Of a stretch of DNA of 64,000 nucleotides, positions 46,195 through 53,615 are shown piece after piece. Location of the stretch: positions 439,394-503,393 of the forward strand of contig NZ_LN812103.1 of NCBI RefSeq assembly GCF_000942395.1, read 5' to 3'. Numbering within the stretch: the stretch's first letter is position 1; every line of letters starts with the position of its first letter. The translations under genes were made by a program, and so were the position numbers. Under the pieces are notes generated by a model. The model searched no databases. It had not been told where the DNA came from and was given only the letters and a program-made list of their open reading frames with translations. The DNA is from Risungbinella massiliensis (lineage in GTDB: Bacteria > Bacillota > Bacilli > Thermoactinomycetales > Thermoactinomycetaceae).

Positions 46195-47601
46195 TTAATT
46201 ATCTGGTGGGTTTGTGACAGAACTCTTGTTGGTAGGCAAGGTTTCATTAGGTATCATTTGAAGTCCACCTCTACTTTTAGCTAATTGTATACTAAGTCTA
46301 AAGTAGAGTGTAGAGTATTTATTATATTTGATCAAGTCTCTATTTTCGTACAAGGCGCCTAGCTGAAGGGCGAGATCACATTGTTGTACAAGCAGTTTAT
46401 GGCGTTGCGTGATCTCAAGAGCTTTTTCATAGTAACCAATTGCTTGTTCCTGATCATTTTGTTTTAGATAACAATCACCTAATGAAACTAAGCTTTTAAA
46501 CACAGATAGAGAATCGTTTACGCGCTTTCCTTTAACGATAGCTTGTTCTAGGATTTCTCTTGCCTGATCTATTTGTCCTTCATTCAGGTAAAGCTCGCCT
46601 AGTTGGATGTCATTTTGAACCGTTAAGAATTTCCATTTAATTTTATCTTCAAATTGGGCGGCTGTCTGCAAACAGATTTTAGCTTGGTCTAATTTACCTA
46701 AATTTCTATATGCTTTTCCCAAAGCCACCCATAACTCAAAACTTCGATCATAGTTTTTGTGTCGACGAGCAATGTGTATGCCCTCTAGACAATAGGGAAT
46801 TGCTTGAGTATAACGCTTGCTCTTAATATACAAGATTGCGGCAAGTTCATACATATTAAGAGCTGATTCTGTATCTGTGTGGTCTATAGTCTCCCATAGC
46901 TCATTTAGAATGTCATGAGCTTCTTCATTGTGTTCAAGCTTTTCTAAAAATATTGCCTTACTCAAAAGAAGCTGATGGAAAATAAACTTCCTATTTCTAT
47001 CTTTATTATATGAATCTAGTCCTTTTTGAACAAATTCTAGTGCCTCTGTTAAATTGTTTTCACGGAAGTTAATCCTTGCTAATCCATAGTAAGCATTGGC
47101 TAATAAATTCTCTTCATCTGATTCAGGATTGTTCAAACAAATTTTGATCGTCTCATAGAAGTGAAACTCCGATTTCTTCCAATTACTTTGCCAGTTGTCC
47201 TTCTTATAGTAAGCTTGGGCAGTTAGAAACTCGATTAAAGCCAGAAATTTACCAGTAGTACAATTAGGCTTAATCTGTTTCAAGCGTTTTAAGGATGTAT
47301 TAGGATTTACCAAGTCTATATTGTTCTCAATAGATAGAAGCTCGACCTCTAATTTTTCTGCGTGCTGTGCCTCTTTTTCCTCATCTGACTTGATTAAATC
47401 GACCAATTCTTTTTCACTAACTCCGATCTTGCCAAAGAGCTTGATGATCTTGTCTGGCTTTACATTTCTCTTCCCTGTCTCAAAATGGGAGATTGTTCCT
47501 GCTGACAATCCTCGCTCTACTAAATCCTCTATTTTGATCCCCTTCGCATCCCGTATCTCACGAAATATCTTACCTGTCTGATTGTATAGATAGTAGTCCA
47601 T
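46195..47601 (-). CDS. XRE-family HTH regulator with TPR domain (RRNPP-like)
   Basis: 468 residues. HTH_3 at about 8-60 (DLVERGLSAGTISHFETGKRNVKPDKII) and six or more TPR-like repeats to the end (YKKDNWQSNWKKSEFHFYET; AIPYCLEGIHIARR; QAREILEQAIVKGKR; AIGYYEKALEITQRH). This domain plan is that of peptide-sensing regulators such as PlcR/Rap-type or Rgg-like proteins. ATG 47601 follows GGAGGG. It is divergent from the lasso operon, so it may control it. No propeptide gene is seen next to it. Confidence 0.75.
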   Translation of the reverse strand: MDYYLYNQTGKIFREIRDAKGIKIEDLVERGLSAGTISHFETGKRNVKPDKIIKLFGKIGVSEKELVDLIKSDEEKEAQHAEKLEVELLSIENNIDLVNPNTSLKRLKQIKPNCTTGKFLALIEFLTAQAYYKKDNWQSNWKKSEFHFYETIKICLNNPESDEENLLANAYYGLARINFRENNLTEALEFVQKGLDSYNKDRNRKFIFHQLLLSKAIFLEKLEHNEEAHDILNELWETIDHTDTESALNMYELAAILYIKSKRYTQAIPYCLEGIHIARRHKNYDRSFELWVALGKAYRNLGKLDQAKICLQTAAQFEDKIKWKFLTVQNDIQLGELYLNEGQIDQAREILEQAIVKGKRVNDSLSVFKSLVSLGDCYLKQNDQEQAIGYYEKALEITQRHKLLVQQCDLALQLGALYENRDLIKYNKYSTLYFRLSIQLAKSRGGLQMIPNETLPTNKSSVTNPPDN

Positions 47602-47786
47602 TTGTCCCTCCAAAAAAATTTTTCACTTTTTTTCTTTAGAAATTCTGCTTTTTCCCGTGTTTCGATTGAATTAACAGAAAAGTTACTCTGGGATTTTTGA
47701 AAATTTCTACAAAGGTATCTTTTGTGCTTGCAAATCTACTGTATTTTTCAAGTTTTTCCTGTTTAAAAATATTTAATTTCAATAAT

Positions 47787-47815
47787 TTGTCACTAATTCT
47801 ACTATTAATTATAAT
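47787..47815 (+). promoter_or_regulatory. Promoter of the lasso-peptide operon
   Basis: TTGTCA (47787-47792), 17-base spacer, TATAAT (47810-47815): near-consensus sigma-A. It points into the lasso operon. The remainder of 47602-47926 is AT-rich and gene-free. Confidence 0.65.
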
Positions 47816-47834
47816 CAGAAACAAGAACGACGTG

Positions 47835-47887
47835 TAGCAATGAAGGGGACGGTATAGAGGCTTCACACTACCTCTCCTTTGTTGCTA
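47835..47887 (+). promoter_or_regulatory. Stem-loop in the lasso operon leader
   Basis: TAGCAA (47835-47840) pairs with TTGCTA (47882-47887), and inner AGAGG (47856-47860) with CCTCT (47871-47875). It could set mRNA stability or be a binding site; no riboswitch class recognised. Confidence 0.4.
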
Positions 47888-47926
47888 AGGATAAGTAGTT
47901 GAAACATGAAAAAGGAGCAAGAGCTG

Positions 47927-48199
47927 ATGCTAGAACTCACTTTGAAAGGATCGCATACCGAGGTGATTCAACTAATGAGATGGATCGAATGCCTGTCTAC
48001 GATCAATTCGGTCACGTTTCAGGGAGATTCCAGTGTAAAGTGCCACGTCAAGCTGAATCAACTTCACAAGATGCCAAATTCTACAGTGGAGATGAAAACA
48101 GAGAGTGGAGCAGATATTCAGATACAGCTATCTGATTGTGAAATGGTTACACTGGGGAAGAAAACTGTGTTGAGAGGCAAGCATTACGATATTTTCTAG
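47927..48199 (+). CDS. Unknown 90-aa protein, first gene of lasso operon
   Basis: Starts LELTLKGSHTEVIQLMRWIECL, then strands (VTFQGDSSVKCHVKL, TVEMKTESGADIQIQL) and ends VLRGKHYDIF. ATG 47927 lies 10 bases after AAAGGAG; ATG 47906 has no site. It precedes the B1 gene by 16 bases. Not one of the standard lasso proteins known to me. The first 20 residues resemble DUF3970-type small proteins only loosely. Confidence 0.6.
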   Translation: MLELTLKGSHTEVIQLMRWIECLSTINSVTFQGDSSVKCHVKLNQLHKMPNSTVEMKTESGADIQIQLSDCEMVTLGKKTVLRGKHYDIF

Positions 48200-48215
48200 G
48201 CGAAGGAGATAGGAA

Positions 48216-48485
48216 ATGACGAGGTATATAGTGCCGAAAGAAATTGTATTTAACGATATTGATAATGGTGCGTTCATCTATAACAGTAAAACCGAAATGT
48301 GTTTTGGATTAGATGAAGTAGCTCTTTCCATATGGAAGATGATCCATGCAGGGGAAAGTGTTGGGTCTATTGTTCGCAATATTCAAAACAAATATACCCA
48401 GGATGAAGCCCTAGTAGAGAGAGATGTTAATGATCTCATTGATCGACTCGTAGAGCACTCTCTACTAATTGCGTTAGACGACTGA
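48216..48485 (+). CDS. Lasso peptide B1 protein (RRE, PqqD-like)
   Basis: 89 residues. RiPP recognition element: beta-strands IVFNDIDNGAFIYNSKTEMCFGLDEVALSIW, then a helical part with IQNKYTQDEALVERDVNDLIDRLVEH. PqqD-like proteins bind the leader peptide and hand it to B2 and C. Stop precedes the precursor gene by 20 bases, with an AAAGGAGGTG site between. Confidence 0.9.
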   Translation: MTRYIVPKEIVFNDIDNGAFIYNSKTEMCFGLDEVALSIWKMIHAGESVGSIVRNIQNKYTQDEALVERDVNDLIDRLVEHSLLIALDD

Positions 48486-48505
48486 TGAAAGGAGGTGAGA
48501 CAAAA

Positions 48506-48646
48506 ATGGAAAACCAAAAACAAGAAAAGAAAGAGTACACATCGCCAAACTTAATCGTACTTGGCAACATCGTAGAGATTACTTTTGGTGGCGCTGGTGG
48601 ACACGACACAGACACCTACTCTACCAAATACCCACGTAGCGAATAG
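48506..48646 (+). CDS. Lasso peptide precursor (A)
   Basis: 46 residues, too short for standard ORF cut-offs. Leader M1-F27 carries the RRE-binding pattern Y11-x2-P14-x-L16-x3-G20-x5-T26, with Thr at the usual -2 position. Predicted core G28-E46: GGAGGHDTDTYSTKYPRSE, 19 residues. Gly1 can close an isopeptide ring with Asp9 (or less likely Asp7), leaving a tail with Tyr and Lys plugs. It ends Arg-Ser-Glu. Ribosome site GGAGGTG. Class II lasso (Gly start). Ring residue inferred from spacing. Confidence 0.88.
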   Translation: MENQKQEKKEYTSPNLIVLGNIVEITFGGAGGHDTDTYSTKYPRSE

Positions 48647-48656
48647 CATTGATTCT

Positions 48657-48690
48657 TATAGAGAGCACATTAAAAGGTGTGCTCTCTATA
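48657..48690 (+). terminator. Attenuator-like hairpin between precursor and kinase genes
   Basis: Perfect 13-bp stem (48657-48669 with 48678-48690), 8-base loop, no T-run. Placed right after the precursor stop, it may raise precursor over enzyme mRNA, as in many RiPP operons. Confidence 0.7.
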
Positions 48691-48718
48691 AATATTAAAG
48701 AAGAGAGGGAGGGTTAAA

Positions 48719-49648
48719 ATGAACTACTACAAAATGTATGGTTTGGTAATAAAAACGAAGCTAGATTTAAGTGACTATTTTTATGAATGTGGTAAGAGCT
48801 ACTATGATTTTGAAATTGTATGCGATGATCGGTTCTTTAACAAAGATCTATTAAACCAATCGAAACTGGTATTTAGAAGGTTTATTGTAGGTGAAGCTGT
48901 TCCTTTTAAAGAGGTTTATAAAGTTGGGAATAGCGATTATTTTTTGCGATGGTTAACTAAGTATCAGTTTTTTATAGATCCGTTTAAGCGCCGCCTTATT
49001 ATGAATAGTGAGCTTGATGAAGAGTTTTTCGCCATCTTCTTCTCCAAAATAACTTCTTTTTTGCTATATCTAAAAGGACATTCCCAGTTACACGGAAGTG
49101 CGGTTAGATATCGCAATAAGACAATATGTTTCATAGGAGATTCTGGTACTGGCAAGTCAACAATTGCTTCTTTGTGTGCTTTAGCTGGAGGAAAGATCAT
49201 TACAGACGATATTATTGCTCTTGCCCCAGAAACGTATATGGTCAGAAGCGGTATCCCGAGTATGCGGCTTTCTGAATCTTCGCCACTTGTTAGTCAAGCA
49301 ACTAGGAATTTTGGAGAGATCGACAAGCTCAGAGTGGATGTTTCGCAAGGACTTCATTATAAGGACGATTCGTTTATTGATGGCTTCTTCTTTCTTAAAT
49401 TGGATGATACAAAAGGTCTCGTTTCTAAGCGTCTAAAGGGAAATGAAACGATAATGCATTTACTTTCCAATGTCTATGCTAAGCATTTCTTGAAGCATGT
49501 GTTTAGTGAAGTTTTCTACGATAGAAATTTACCAGTATTCACACGATTATCCTGCGAGGTACCTATGTTCAGGGTTTATCGAGATACCGAAACGAATCCA
49601 GAATCACTGTTTAGCCTAATTGATGAATTAGTAAATCAGATTAGTTAG
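48719..49648 (+). CDS. HPr-kinase-like lasso peptide kinase
   Basis: 309 residues. C-terminal HPrK/P-type kinase fold: P-loop GDSGTGKST at 140-148, HGSAVRYRNK in front, and GGKIITDDIIALAP with acidic D163-D164. N-terminal half is unlike HPr kinase (about 120 residues). Proteins of this type phosphorylate the C-terminal Ser of lasso peptides of the paeninodin group. Here the core ends in Ser-Glu, so Ser is penultimate. Operon member between A and B2. Confidence 0.85.
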   Translation: MNYYKMYGLVIKTKLDLSDYFYECGKSYYDFEIVCDDRFFNKDLLNQSKLVFRRFIVGEAVPFKEVYKVGNSDYFLRWLTKYQFFIDPFKRRLIMNSELDEEFFAIFFSKITSFLLYLKGHSQLHGSAVRYRNKTICFIGDSGTGKSTIASLCALAGGKIITDDIIALAPETYMVRSGIPSMRLSESSPLVSQATRNFGEIDKLRVDVSQGLHYKDDSFIDGFFFLKLDDTKGLVSKRLKGNETIMHLLSNVYAKHFLKHVFSEVFYDRNLPVFTRLSCEVPMFRVYRDTETNPESLFSLIDELVNQIS

Positions 49649-49659
49649 GGGGAACTGTA

Positions 49660-50085
49660 ATGGGGAGAGTGGTTTCATTTATTTTGAGTTATTGGTATCT
49701 GTTCTTCTATTATAGAAGATTAAGGAAAAAGGGGTTGCAGGATGCAATTAAAAACATTGAGGATGAAACAGTAACACGAAATAAAAGATTGAATGAGGGC
49801 TGTATTATTAGTGGCTTTCAATTGGCTTGTAAATTGCACTTCTTAAATATAGAGTGCTTAGAACGATCACTAGCTCTTTACAAACTATTACGTTTTAACA
49901 ATATGCAGAGCCGACTTTGTATTGGGATTAAAAAGAAGCCTTTCTTAAGCCACGCATGGGTTGAGACCCCTATTCGTGAGTTGGACGAGAGTAAATACAG
50001 AGATAAATTTCAGGTGTTTCTACAATATCAGAGGGAGGATAAGTCCAATGCCAGTAGCTTTCTACTCAACAAAGGGAGAGTTTGA
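49660..50085 (+). CDS. Lasso peptide B2 protein (leader peptidase)
   Basis: 141 residues. Transglutaminase-like cysteine protease that removes the leader. Catalytic Cys66 in IECLERSLALYKLLR and His98 in SHAWVE. 11 bases after the kinase stop. Its 3' end overlaps the cyclase start by 38 bases, indicating coupled translation. Ribosome site GGGGG. Confidence 0.88.
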   Translation: MGRVVSFILSYWYLFFYYRRLRKKGLQDAIKNIEDETVTRNKRLNEGCIISGFQLACKLHFLNIECLERSLALYKLLRFNNMQSRLCIGIKKKPFLSHAWVETPIRELDESKYRDKFQVFLQYQREDKSNASSFLLNKGRV

Positions 50086-51798
50086 TCTAAGTAATCAAGT
50101 ATATTCCACAGTAGTTGATGGAACCTTTTGTTTTCCATCCCATTGGCATAGTTATCAGGTAAATCAATATATCATTGTCGTGCTTGAAGATCTCAACGGG
50201 AATATTGGATTGCTATTAGAGATATTGAGATCTAACTCTACTATGAGTGATGATTTACTTCAGCCCTTAAAAGGATCATTTTCTTTTCTATTATATGATA
50301 GGCAAGCGAGGAGATTGCAAGTGTTCAGAAGTCTGACTGCTGATCCTGTTTTTTATTATCACTACTCTGGCAAACTTGTTGTGTCCAATGAACTTGATTC
50401 ACTTCGTAAATACAGCAGGGATCTGAACACAGATTATTTTAAATTGTACTTGCATACCGAGCTTACGGAGACAGAGCATACTCCTTATATGGGTGTAAAG
50501 CGTATTTTACCAGCTCACAAAGTCGTTAAAGAGGAAAATCGAGAGATCGTGAACAAGAAATACTGGTCTTTAACACAAGAGAACAGAGACAACAACGCAT
50601 CGCTAGAAGAACATATTGAGACATTTGCAAGCATGCTTAAAGATGCTGTAAAAAAATCTGTTGCTGATCAAAGAATCATTAGCTGTGAAGTTAGTGGAGG
50701 ATTGGATTCAACTAGTGTTGCTTTTTTGGCAGAAGAGAATATTGGAGTAAAGGTATATGGGCATACCTATATCTTTGATAAAATCGAGGACGGGAAACCG
50801 AACAAAGAAACTGTTGATATAATATATCAGCAAACCGACATCGTCCCGAATTACCTTAATCTTTCGAACTATTGGTCGTTCAAACATGTTAAAGATGAGA
50901 TTAAAGTCTATGACGAACCAAGCCCACTTGTTTTGCATTCTGCTATGTTTCATGAATTAAATCAGTCTGCCAAGAGCATGGGGTCAACGGTGCTTCTATC
51001 TGGAGAAGGAGGAGACGAGTTATTATCCTCGAGCTCGTATTATCTCCGAGACTTATTTCTACAAGGTAAAATGAGCCAAGTGTGGTCTCATATGTTGAAA
51101 GTATCTACGAAAAGAAAACAACCATTATGGAAGATCTTTTGCACTTATATCCTGCCTTCTTTGTTGCCACTTAAACTGAGATATCGACTAGAGAATGAAT
51201 TAAATAAACAAACTTGGCAAAACACAGGATTTTCTTTGACTTGGTATACTACTCCTTCTTGGATTGGGGATAATCTGAAAGGTATTAGTTTTCAAGAAGT
51301 GGAAGAGGAACGGAGAAAAATAAGAGATCCTAGTTTAAAAAGTATCTACTTGAGAGAGAACTTTGAAAGGTTTATCCTGATTAATCCCTGCCCTTGGTTA
51401 AATAGCAACATTGGTAAGCCGAATGGTCTTAAGCGAATTTATCCATTCAGAGACCAACGACTTATTGAATTTTTTTTACATTGCCTTCGTTAACGAAACT
51501 AGAAATCAGTCGTAAAAAGAGATGTATTAGCGAAGGACTTCAGAACACTATCCCAAAAGCAATACTGGCTAATCCAGATGATAGTCGGTTTACAGAGATC
51601 TATCGCAAAGGTTTTTTCAAGGAATCCGACTATGTAAATCAGCTAATAAAAACATCTCGTGCGGCAGATTTAGGATGGATTCAGAAAGATGTATTTATGG
51701 ACGCTGTAGAAAGGTTTAAGTTTGGGCTCAATAATGATTTTGCCCTAATCTTTCGAACGCTGAGTTTAGAGATTTGGCTTAGGCATCATGGGTACTAA
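50048..51798 (+). CDS. Lasso cyclase C (asparagine-synthetase-like), frameshifted
   Basis: Asn-synthetase B-like ligase that forms the lactam ring. Frame 1 (50048-51493) starts MPVAFYSTKGE (no glutaminase Cys), contains the AMP/PPi motif SGGLDSTSVAF at about 216-226 and stops after RLIEFFLHCLR. The family sequence continues in another frame from 51481 (LPSLTKLEISRKKRCISEGL) to 51798. The break is an 8-T run (51470-51477): one extra T restores a single about 583-residue protein. Ribosome site GGAGG before ATG 50048. It may be an error, a phase switch, or slippage. Confidence 0.85.
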
Positions 51799-51823
51799 TA
51801 AATTTTCGGAGGCTGGATGTAAA

Positions 51824-53242
51824 ATGGTTGTGGAACCAACTTGGAAACGAATAGGACTTACAGATAAATTGAGCGAGGATTCTGGTAAGGGAATTGGAAT
51901 TATTATTTTAGATGGTGCTCTATCACATGTGTCACTAAGTCATTTGAAAGGTCGTGCAAAACTAATTAAAGTGCGTAAAGACATGACAATTAGTTGCACC
52001 GATTTGTTTGAGGAGCCTTTGACAGAAGAAGTGGAGAAAGAAGAACATGGTTTGATGGTGCTTAGTTTACTAGCACATCAACCGATGGAATATAGAGGTA
52101 TGGAGTATGCAGGATTGGCACCTTCGGCAAACTATATCTTTCTATCTTCCTATATCCCTGAACGTAGAAAGAAAGGTCTCGAATGGATATTACAACAGGA
52201 CTGGGGTTTCCCGTTAAAGATATGTTTAAATCTACTCGTACCACAGGAGAGAGGATGGATGTCTCCAACTCATCTCGATCCTTATGTGCAAGCTTTGCAG
52301 CCTGCTGTGGATGCGGGTTTGTTGGTTATTGCTGCTGGCGGAAATTCAAGGGCACACAATAACTTGCATCCAAAACAATATTTTACAGTGAGTGGTTACA
52401 ACGATAAGGGTTTCAGTGAACTTAACAACTATGAAGTACATCCAGCAGTAGCTTCTGGTGTAAACAGCGATGGGCATTGGAGACCAGATATCCTTGCACC
52501 CTATACTTATCTTCCTTTGCCTAGTTTAGAAAGAGATGGAGTAGATTATTTTAGTGCTACCTGTGGGAGCGCTTCTCTCATAACAGGACTATGTGCATAT
52601 CTATTTTCGATCTTTCCTGATCTTACCGTTAATAACATTCGAAATGCTTTAATGGAAACAGGAGATGTACTAGAAGGCTTTCCAGCTCCTATTGTGAATG
52701 CTCGAAAGGCATTTAAGGCATTAAAAGAAGGCAACCGTAACGATAAGCATCTGTCTTTAGAGCCAACTGTTGTAGTGACCAATGAAAAGGAATCCATACT
52801 CTCTGCAGACCCCTTAGAAAGATCTTTAGCTTTGACCATGCTAATAAAAGATAGGCAATTATCGAGGGAAGAAATTTGGGATTATACGAATGATGAATCT
52901 CCCATGGTAAAAAAAGTAGCCATACAAGGATTAGGAAACCCAATTAATCAAGTGGAAAGAGATTTATATTGGGAACGTGTTTGGGGGGAATCGAGCAGAG
53001 ACGGTGTAAAAGAAAGTTGGGCATATACTCTGCTCGAAACATCTCCCATAGAAGAGCTAGATAAATGGATGTCTTTAGTAGAAACTAGGTCATTTGATAC
53101 TCGAATTTGCATTACTATCTTCTTACAAAAATATTTTCCAGATGCTCCTGAAATAGAGCATTCTCCTGATCCCGATCCAAAGACAATGTCTGCTATTGTT
53201 GCCCCATTAGTAGAATGGCATAAGCATAGATTCGAAAGTTGA
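51824..53242 (+). CDS. S8 (subtilase-fold) protein with Cys at the nucleophile position and HEAT-like C-terminus
   Basis: 472 residues. N-terminal subtilase core with Asp30 (IIILDGALSH), His75 (EEHGLMV) and oxyanion Asn174 (AAGGNS). At the nucleophile motif the sequence is SATCGSASLITG; aligned with subtilisin GTSMASPHVAG, Cys247 takes the place of Ser. No signal peptide or propeptide. The C-terminal 150 residues are helical repeats (LERSLALTMLIKDRQLS; SPMVKKVAIQGLGNP; ESWAYTLLETS), HEAT-like. Last enzyme of the lasso operon; starts 25 bases after the cyclase. Role (processing, hydrolysis or immunity) unknown. Confidence 0.75.
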   Translation: MVVEPTWKRIGLTDKLSEDSGKGIGIIILDGALSHVSLSHLKGRAKLIKVRKDMTISCTDLFEEPLTEEVEKEEHGLMVLSLLAHQPMEYRGMEYAGLAPSANYIFLSSYIPERRKKGLEWILQQDWGFPLKICLNLLVPQERGWMSPTHLDPYVQALQPAVDAGLLVIAAGGNSRAHNNLHPKQYFTVSGYNDKGFSELNNYEVHPAVASGVNSDGHWRPDILAPYTYLPLPSLERDGVDYFSATCGSASLITGLCAYLFSIFPDLTVNNIRNALMETGDVLEGFPAPIVNARKAFKALKEGNRNDKHLSLEPTVVVTNEKESILSADPLERSLALTMLIKDRQLSREEIWDYTNDESPMVKKVAIQGLGNPINQVERDLYWERVWGESSRDGVKESWAYTLLETSPIEELDKWMSLVETRSFDTRICITIFLQKYFPDAPEIEHSPDPDPKTMSAIVAPLVEWHKHRFES

Positions 53243-53255
53243 TAGCAGTTTAATT

Positions 53256-53408
53256 TTGTTACCTTTTCCTTTAGATAGTTTGGCAATTGATCTTACGCTT
53301 AATAAATATTTATCAGAGTTGACAGAAGAAGTACGACGATTAGTTCAATCTGAAGCAAATGAAAGGATTTATAACATATTCATGGATGTACTAAAAATGA
53401 TTGAGTGA
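53256..53408 (+). CDS. Small 50-aa ORF or gene remnant
   Basis: Frame with TTG start, reading LPFPLDSLAIDLTLNKYL then SELTEEVRRLVQSEANERI and a stop. It has coding character (helix with mixed charge) but no clear ribosome site. It may be a coupled small lasso-operon gene or the end of a lost one. Family not recognised. Confidence 0.35.
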   Translation: MLPFPLDSLAIDLTLNKYLSELTEEVRRLVQSEANERIYNIFMDVLKMIE

Positions 53409-53499
53409 GGCTCAAATTAAGTATGATTATGTGGCTATGTTTCGAGATAGACATATTTCGTTCCATCTTATATACTTATCTAGAAAACTATACCAAAAT

Positions 53500-53592
53500 A
53501 ACAGGGGAGCTGGGATAGGCCGGCTGAGAGTGTGTTCCCAACAACACAGACCCTTACACCTGATCCGGGTAATGCCGGCGTAGGAATTCATA
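53500..53592 (+). promoter_or_regulatory. TPP riboswitch (THI element)
   Basis: Conserved blocks GGGGAGCT, GGCTGAGAG, GACCCTTACACCTGATC and GGGTAATGCCGGCGTAGGAA occur in the correct order. It senses thiamine pyrophosphate and controls the operon downstream through the terminator at 53616-53646. Confidence 0.95.
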
Positions 53593-53615
53593 GGGTTTTT
53601 CTATGTGTCTATGTG

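Follow-up and report, generated by a model that had tools for sequence, protein, structure and literature searches.

The locus described here raises the question of which function is fulfilled by a subtilase that closes an operon for lasso peptide biosynthesis and carries cysteine in place of its catalytic serine. It is part of a 64,000-nucleotide stretch of contig NZ_LN812103.1 (hereafter the window) from the genome of Risungbinella massiliensis (G000), for which an earlier note had claimed a lasso operon with a kinase and a Cys-variant subtilase but without an exporter. On the plus strand the genes follow each other in the order X, B1, A, K, B2, C and S8, bounded by a divergent regulator and a thiamine pyrophosphate (TPP) riboswitch, and the intergenic gaps within the operon are small or negative (at most 72 bases), a spacing as in one transcript. 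From B1 onwards the genes are the following.

48216..48485, plus strand: B1, leader-binding protein of the PqqD type (RiPP recognition element, RRE); PF05402 PqqD, 44.9 bits (cutoff 23.4)
48506..48646 (best start 48506), plus strand: A, lasso precursor of 46 amino acids (aa), identified from an alignment of four precursors
48719..49648, plus strand: K, divergent HPr-kinase-like kinase; Hpr_kinase_C and PEPCK_ATP match under their cutoffs (16.5 for Pfam Hpr_kinase_C, cutoff 33.3)
49660..50085, plus strand: B2, leader peptidase, transglutaminase-like; NCBIfam NF033537, 55.9 bits (cutoff 33); PF13471
50048..51493, plus strand: C, first part of the lasso cyclase; Asn_synthase PF00733, 66.6 bits (cutoff 21)
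51481..51798, plus strand: C-terminal remainder of C in another frame, 46-66% identical to the C ends of relatives
51788..53242, plus strand: S8, Cys-type subtilase; Peptidase_S8 PF00082, 35.8 bits (cutoff 21.8); the true start is probably 51824, matching where relatives begin

Conservation of the operon

The same gene order was found to recur in three further genomes of the family, which together with the profile matches listed above confirms the operon of B1, A, K, B2, C and S8 as real. The order is complete in G000, G031, G032 and one locus of G030, as judged from the flanks and by tblastn, which detects B1 homologues in the respective loci of the latter three (L017, L018 and L020), and it was kept in all four loci that possess biosynthetic genes. 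As G031, G032 and G030 share it, the layout is not due to chance; it was seen in one family only, the Thermoactinomycetaceae, to which Hazenella coriacea (G023) belongs as well. A search with the S8 protein identified matches in eight of the 42 genomes of the taxonomic order at 1e-20, own genome counted, and in 10/10 loci of the family S8 lies where C, or what remains of it, ends (for G020 judged by eye). The C frame of the window is broken near 51475; in the three relatives (G031 L017, G032 L018, G030 L020) C is uninterrupted with 579-585 aa. The G032 kinase possesses a frame break near its start (L018:7728-7830), the rest of this operon looking complete, so that G031 and G030 are the only genomes in which all six genes have uninterrupted frames. 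Both breaks may be either real or assembly errors.

Of the 398 genomes searched in the class, 15 were found to encode S8 homologues; among 398 genomes of the phylum only the own genome and one weak match (4e-21) were recovered. Carriage of S8 by phages or plasmids was rejected, as the 50,697 records of phages and 72,556 of plasmids gave no match and 0/21 pattern matches in viral contigs were confirmed, and so was a known defence role, for which a weak PADLOC 'subtilase' match is all that was obtained.

The catalytic site of S8

The claim of a Cys-variant subtilase holds, since in the alignment the catalytic Ser is replaced by Cys in all nine readable lasso-linked S8 copies. The Asp-His-Ser triad of the S8 family is hence incomplete, with Asp and His being present and Ser replaced; Asp, His and the oxyanion Asn are retained in every readable copy, corresponding in the window to the invariant residues D42, H87 and N186 next to the catalytic Cys259. 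The tenth copy, that of H. coriacea, has as its only internal stop a TGA exactly at the catalytic Cys codon (L003:10748-10750), probably a nonsense mutation. Selenocysteine at this codon was considered and rejected, as the selB matches in G023 and G000 are all below the curated cutoff and resemble general GTPases. Among the remaining copies, that of G020 is split over two contigs and contains stops, and one of G030 (G030b) reaches 21.1 bits with Peptidase_S8, just below the cutoff.

In the numbering of subtilisin BPN', whose motif position is borne out by the HMMER alignment to ligases, residue 222 is Gly in 10/10 copies, and residue 225, usually Pro, is Thr in eight, Ser in one and Ala in one. 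The engineered enzymes subtiligase, peptiligase, thymoligase and omniligase likewise have Cys at 221, Gly or Pro at 222 and a non-Pro residue at 225, and the natural motif GTCGSAT..G was aligned with GTCGASN..G of 5ox2 and GTCPASA..G of 7am3 (E about 1e-4), which the available part of PMC7921005 identifies as thymoligase and an omniligase precursor. S8 differs from these ligases in being natural, only distantly similar and equipped with an extra C-terminal part. According to the same excerpt of PMC7921005, the S221C exchange renders the acyl-enzyme more readily cleaved by amines, P225A restores the activity of thiol-subtilisin, and synthesis proceeds better with a small polar residue (Asn, Asp, Ser, Cys, also Gly) than with Ala at position 225. 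A structure prediction on an alignment of the window and L003 pieces yielded a mean pLDDT (predicted local distance difference test) of 34.3.

The closest outside relatives of S8 occur in 10 of the 197 genomes of a family termed f9, which we take to be the Paenibacillaceae, and these keep Ser in 9/9 readable copies, that of G176 being too broken to be read. On the tree the Cys-type S8 proteins form one clade (support 88/99), to which the Cys change is confined among the sequences included. Non-Pro225 was also identified in the Ser-type relatives, and an ordinary subtilase encoded in the own genome has it as well; it is therefore Cys alone, not non-Pro225, that appears from these sequences to distinguish the lasso-linked branch. 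No lasso genes were found beside the Ser-type f9 relatives by homology to the genes of the window, and in nine of these genomes the K clusters reside on other contigs or at least about 0.9 Mb away (G469 has no K). As a consequence, the linkage of S8 considered in the earlier note stands for all loci of the family but does not extend to the Ser-type relatives. In two cases (L122, L123) the latter adjoin ABC (ATP-binding cassette) exporters; in G469 (L122:9611-14690) two ABC exporter genes lie directly 3' of the Ser-type S8 in an operon-like arrangement.

Kinase and precursor

For precursor A a 19-residue core from G1 to E19 was predicted, with D9 as ring acceptor and Ser18 as penultimate residue. 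An alignment of the four precursors from S8-type operons revealed as invariant the leader motif Y..P.L..LG, Thr at position -2, G1, D9 and the penultimate Ser. They thereby conform to the general pattern of lasso precursors, in which Gly1 is followed by Asp or Glu at positions 7-9. Thr at -2 is also given in the accessible part of PMC10885120. The four precursors end in SE, SE, SQ and SD, hence none of them ends in Ser.

In K the motifs HGSA, GxSGxGKST and DD are invariant in the S8-type operons and common to other kinases of this kind. A kinase search of the 398 genomes of the class yielded matches in 43. The E-values of the four S8-type kinases are at most 1e-147, and the next-best match has 1e-17, a gap inflated by the profile having been built from these four, for which reason identities and a tree were also considered; the same profile matches the other kinases at 1e-17 to 1e-8. 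The S8-type kinases are 35-50% identical to each other and 15.7-23.4% identical to those of 20 other clusters, and they form a separate clade on the tree (support 100).

These 20 clusters, read out of 39, are taken to be of the paeninodin type of Paenibacillus and Bacillus. That type has A, B1, B2 and C in common with the window operon, together with an HPr-kinase-like K in which the same motifs occur. The 20 clusters differ from the window operon in their order, with C first and then K-B1-B2-D or D-K-B1-B2 (D being the exporter) as compared to B1-A-K-B2-C-S8, and in their content, since C, K and the exporter occur in 20/20 and S8 in 0/20. With the small profiles B2 was undetected in L101 and L119 and B1 in L118. 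Precursors were identified by motif and position in 19 of the 20 (18 plus L110; none in L101), and in contrast to the window operon, where one residue follows the Ser, all 27 of them end in Ser. The four S8-type operons represent one lineage, so that this is to be read as a single evolutionary contrast and not as 31 independent observations. In L100, L104 and L105 three or four near-identical precursor genes each were found, all ending in ...YNPS or ...YNPGS.

The exporter

In the window, no exporter was found near the operon or in the following 10 kb, and to this extent the claim of an exporter-free operon stands; for the family it does not. In G030 S8 is directly followed by a short PqqD-like open reading frame (ORF) and an exporter of the ABC type (L020 5859-7622; both ABC_membrane and ABC_tran above cutoff), which contradicts the idea that close relatives lack an exporter in the operon. 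G031 comes near to doing so: the region 0.8 to 5.4 kb 3' of its S8 contains a nucleotidyltransferase, a PqqD-like ORF (slightly below the Pfam cutoff) and an exporter of the ABC type. The first two are separated by an opposite-strand gene, and the exporter (L017 2426-4150) lies beyond this gene, about 3.7 kb from S8. In the 19 kb of G032 that were read no exporter was identified, profile hits weaker than 1e-10 being excluded. When the own genome was searched with the G030 exporter, the sole match within the window was the ATPase of the presumed thiamine-precursor importer next to the operon. A decayed ABC exporter resides 514 kb from the operon (L068:7381-8426, G000:C7 about 1005380-1006425), its ATPase part being 49% identical to the G030 exporter; that it formerly served the operon is only a guess. 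Another contig encodes an intact exporter-like protein (36% identical) around which no lasso genes were noticed. The absence of the exporter is a trait of this strain and not of the family. A paeninodin cluster without nucleotidyltransferase and ABC transporter is described for a Neobacillus strain in the part of PMC11705953 available; single strains lacking D are therefore already known.

Loss of the biosynthetic genes

Six of the ten S8 loci of the family lack the upstream genes (those of G020, G023, G026 and G034 and two of G030). The orphan S8 is preceded by a C remnant of 12 to about 116 residues whose breakpoints differ; in G026 the contig starts at the orphan locus and the C end is fused to the start of what is presumably an amidase-like protein. 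The orphan frames are intact in G026, G034 and G030a and decayed in G023, G030c and G020. S8-type kinases are absent from the whole genomes of G020, G023, G026 and G034. The reverse situation, i.e., an S8-type K (cut 1e-5) or a sizeable C (cut 1e-15) without adjacent S8, was not encountered in the 42 genomes of the taxonomic order; this search used C and K, hence short C remnants, B1, A and B2 fall outside of it and small relics could escape, and weak G028 matches were taken to be of other types. The end branches of orphan S8 proteins (0.15, 0.27, 0.28 and 0.46) are not longer than those of linked ones (0.40, 0.41, 0.47 and 0.88), the tree giving 0.41 for the decayed L021 and G020 lying outside of it. 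At six loci the biosynthetic genes are thus lost with S8 or its remains still in place, and the reverse was not encountered, which fits a gene that is harmful to lose during production of the peptide.

In G034 (L016:10030-14029) two near-copies of a 166-aa gene enclose the orphan S8 together with a neighbouring gene that resembles transporters of the major facilitator superfamily (MFS), which suggests a small duplicated or mobile segment.

Possible functions of S8

Judged from the known families, B1 and B2 would bind and remove the leader, after which C (broken in this strain) would close the ring between Gly1 and Asp9. K may phosphorylate the tail Ser, as the excerpt of PMC8498205 describes phosphorylation of the C-terminal Ser for paeninodin. 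As the catalytic Ser is now Cys and the pocket is without Pro225, S8 would be expected to form a thioester with its substrate, presumably the lasso peptide or its tail; the conserved catalytic set and the analogy to the engineered enzymes are consistent with this chemistry. No signal peptide was recognized in S8 by eye. Because of the loss pattern we place first, albeit tentatively, the idea that S8 is a thiol-subtilase of the cytosol whose action on the peptide serves mainly self-protection, whereby it may bind, cut or covalently capture the peptide inside the producer, alongside or replacing an exporter.

Several findings weigh against self-protection. Half of the six orphans are decayed, and the same picture could arise from neutral deletion followed by slow decay; moreover, there are only six loss events, and the loci concerned were found via S8 to begin with. 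Since G030 has an exporter and G031 has one nearby, S8 is not simply a substitute for one, which weakens this variant of the idea. As the Ser-type f9 relatives reside away from lasso genes, the fold was probably not a lasso immunity protein originally. Finally, the link between S8 and the extra residue following the Ser fits a role in maturation at least as well.

Owing to these Ser-plus-one tails, C-terminal maturation is placed second and seems possible, though rather unlikely: S8 would remove the residue following the penultimate Ser, or exchange it by thioester transfer, thereby giving a C-terminal Ser of the kind on which paeninodin-type kinases act. The Ser ends of all 27 precursors in S8-free kinase clusters, as opposed to Ser plus Glu, Glu, Gln or Asp in the S8-type operons, are in line with this, and so is the place of S8 at the 3' end of the block, where it overlaps C or lies close to it. 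However, the four S8 operons share one kinase clade, so that the contrast possibly reflects a single event, and the S8-type kinase may simply accept a penultimate Ser. The removal of one residue would furthermore be unusual for subtilases, which are mostly endopeptidases, and it is left unexplained why S8 was kept where the precursor had been lost.

A role of S8 as pseudo-protease, or as hydrolase of very low activity, that works by binding (chaperone, regulator or sequestering protein) via its C-terminal part is considered improbable. This part is well conserved, with many invariant columns beyond residue 320, and S221C alone was described to sharply lower subtilisin activity (PMC7921005, in the part available). 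However, Asp, His, the oxyanion Asn and Cys are all retained in readable copies, of which some loss would be expected in a binding protein, and the loss of Pro225, in light of the restored thiol-subtilisin activity documented in that excerpt, argues for a working site.

Somewhat more doubtful still is a natural subtiligase-like enzyme that forms the thioester at the kinase-marked lasso tail and passes it to an amine, thereby exchanging the residue after Ser or linking the tail with some other molecule. The signature of Cys221 and non-Pro225 is present in S8, its second element not being specific to the Cys branch; to our knowledge no peptide-bond-forming tailoring step has been described for lasso peptides, and none was met in our literature search. 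Least probable is a lasso-independent function of an S8 that merely shares the transcript, for although the Ser-type relatives stand alone in their ten f9 genomes and a K cluster is found elsewhere in nine of these ten as compared to 105 of the 197 overall (a weak excess confounded by relatedness, seven of the ten being one genus), S8 follows C or its remnant at every locus of the window's family and the Cys change is restricted to the lasso-linked clade.

Relation to other systems

The shimazuellin cluster of Shimazuella, a member of the same family, comprises the lasso genes A, B2, C and B1 as well; its order is A-B2-C-B1-D, and neither a kinase nor S8 is among the genes listed in the available part of PMC9774768. 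PatA/PatG, NisP and ElxP are likewise S8 proteases from gene clusters for ribosomally synthesized and post-translationally modified peptides (RiPPs), but according to the excerpt of PMC10885120 they are serine enzymes that act on other peptide classes in leader removal or macrocyclization. If the reading as immunity or detoxification is right, S8 would resemble the lasso isopeptidases in being a protease encoded beside a lasso cluster and acting on the peptide; their fold differs and is prolyl-oligopeptidase-like. None was apparent among the ORFs of the window, no profile search being aimed at isopeptidases. As supposed in the earlier note, the combination does not correspond to a described lasso family, in so far as the layout of kinase and Cys-subtilase, now seen in four genomes, was not met in the portions of the literature returned by our search, and neither was any lasso cluster with a subtilase.

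Neighbouring features

The operon is accompanied by the following features.

46195..47613, minus strand: regulator with helix-turn-helix (HTH) and tetratricopeptide repeat (TPR) parts, Pfam HTH_3 and TPR above cutoff; divergent from X and presumably peptide-responsive, RRNPP-like
47906..48199, plus strand: X, 97-aa protein, no Pfam or NCBIfam match above cutoff
48647..48718, plus strand: hairpin between A and K, minimum free energy -25.1 kcal/mol
53493..53603, plus strand: TPP riboswitch, Rfam RF00059, 67.4 bits (gathering 54.3)

The hairpin is probably an attenuator or an mRNA-stability element; hairpins of unrelated sequence occupy the same place in G031 (-24.7), G030 (-22.9) and, weaker, in G032 (-16.1), these being folds without shuffle control. 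The riboswitch marks the next, unrelated operon, whose genes look from their ORFs like a thiamine-precursor importer.

An unknown protein of about 90 aa had been counted as a member of the operon. This does not hold for X, which gave no tblastn match in the lasso loci of the relatives and was rejected as a lasso-pathway gene, also in view of X-like ORFs (recognized by eye) that adjoin HTH-TPR regulator homologues in L068 and L022; X is probably a partner of the regulator. Homologues of the latter were matched by tblastn in L017, L020, L021, L022 and L068, near several of the related loci; its family appears to be abundant. At several sites a protein of about 97-99 aa is encoded next to an HTH-TPR regulator and divergently from it (e.g., window:46195-48199 and L068:11512-13385, the L068 copy with a DUF3970 match below cutoff); the pair resembles a repeatedly occurring module of two genes without relation to lasso synthesis.

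Implications

Engineered Cys-subtilisins serve as peptide-joining tools, and in the portions of the literature that our search returned no natural Cys-subtilase was met as their counterpart. A natural Cys-subtilase that is tied by its operon to a small and predictable peptide could show to which use evolution has put the chemistry of the cysteine, with peptide ligation, tail editing and self-protection being the candidates. At the same time a further lasso layout is documented, in which kinase, precursor end and accessory enzyme differ jointly from the other kinase clusters, and as these three differ together, the role of tail phosphorylation becomes testable.

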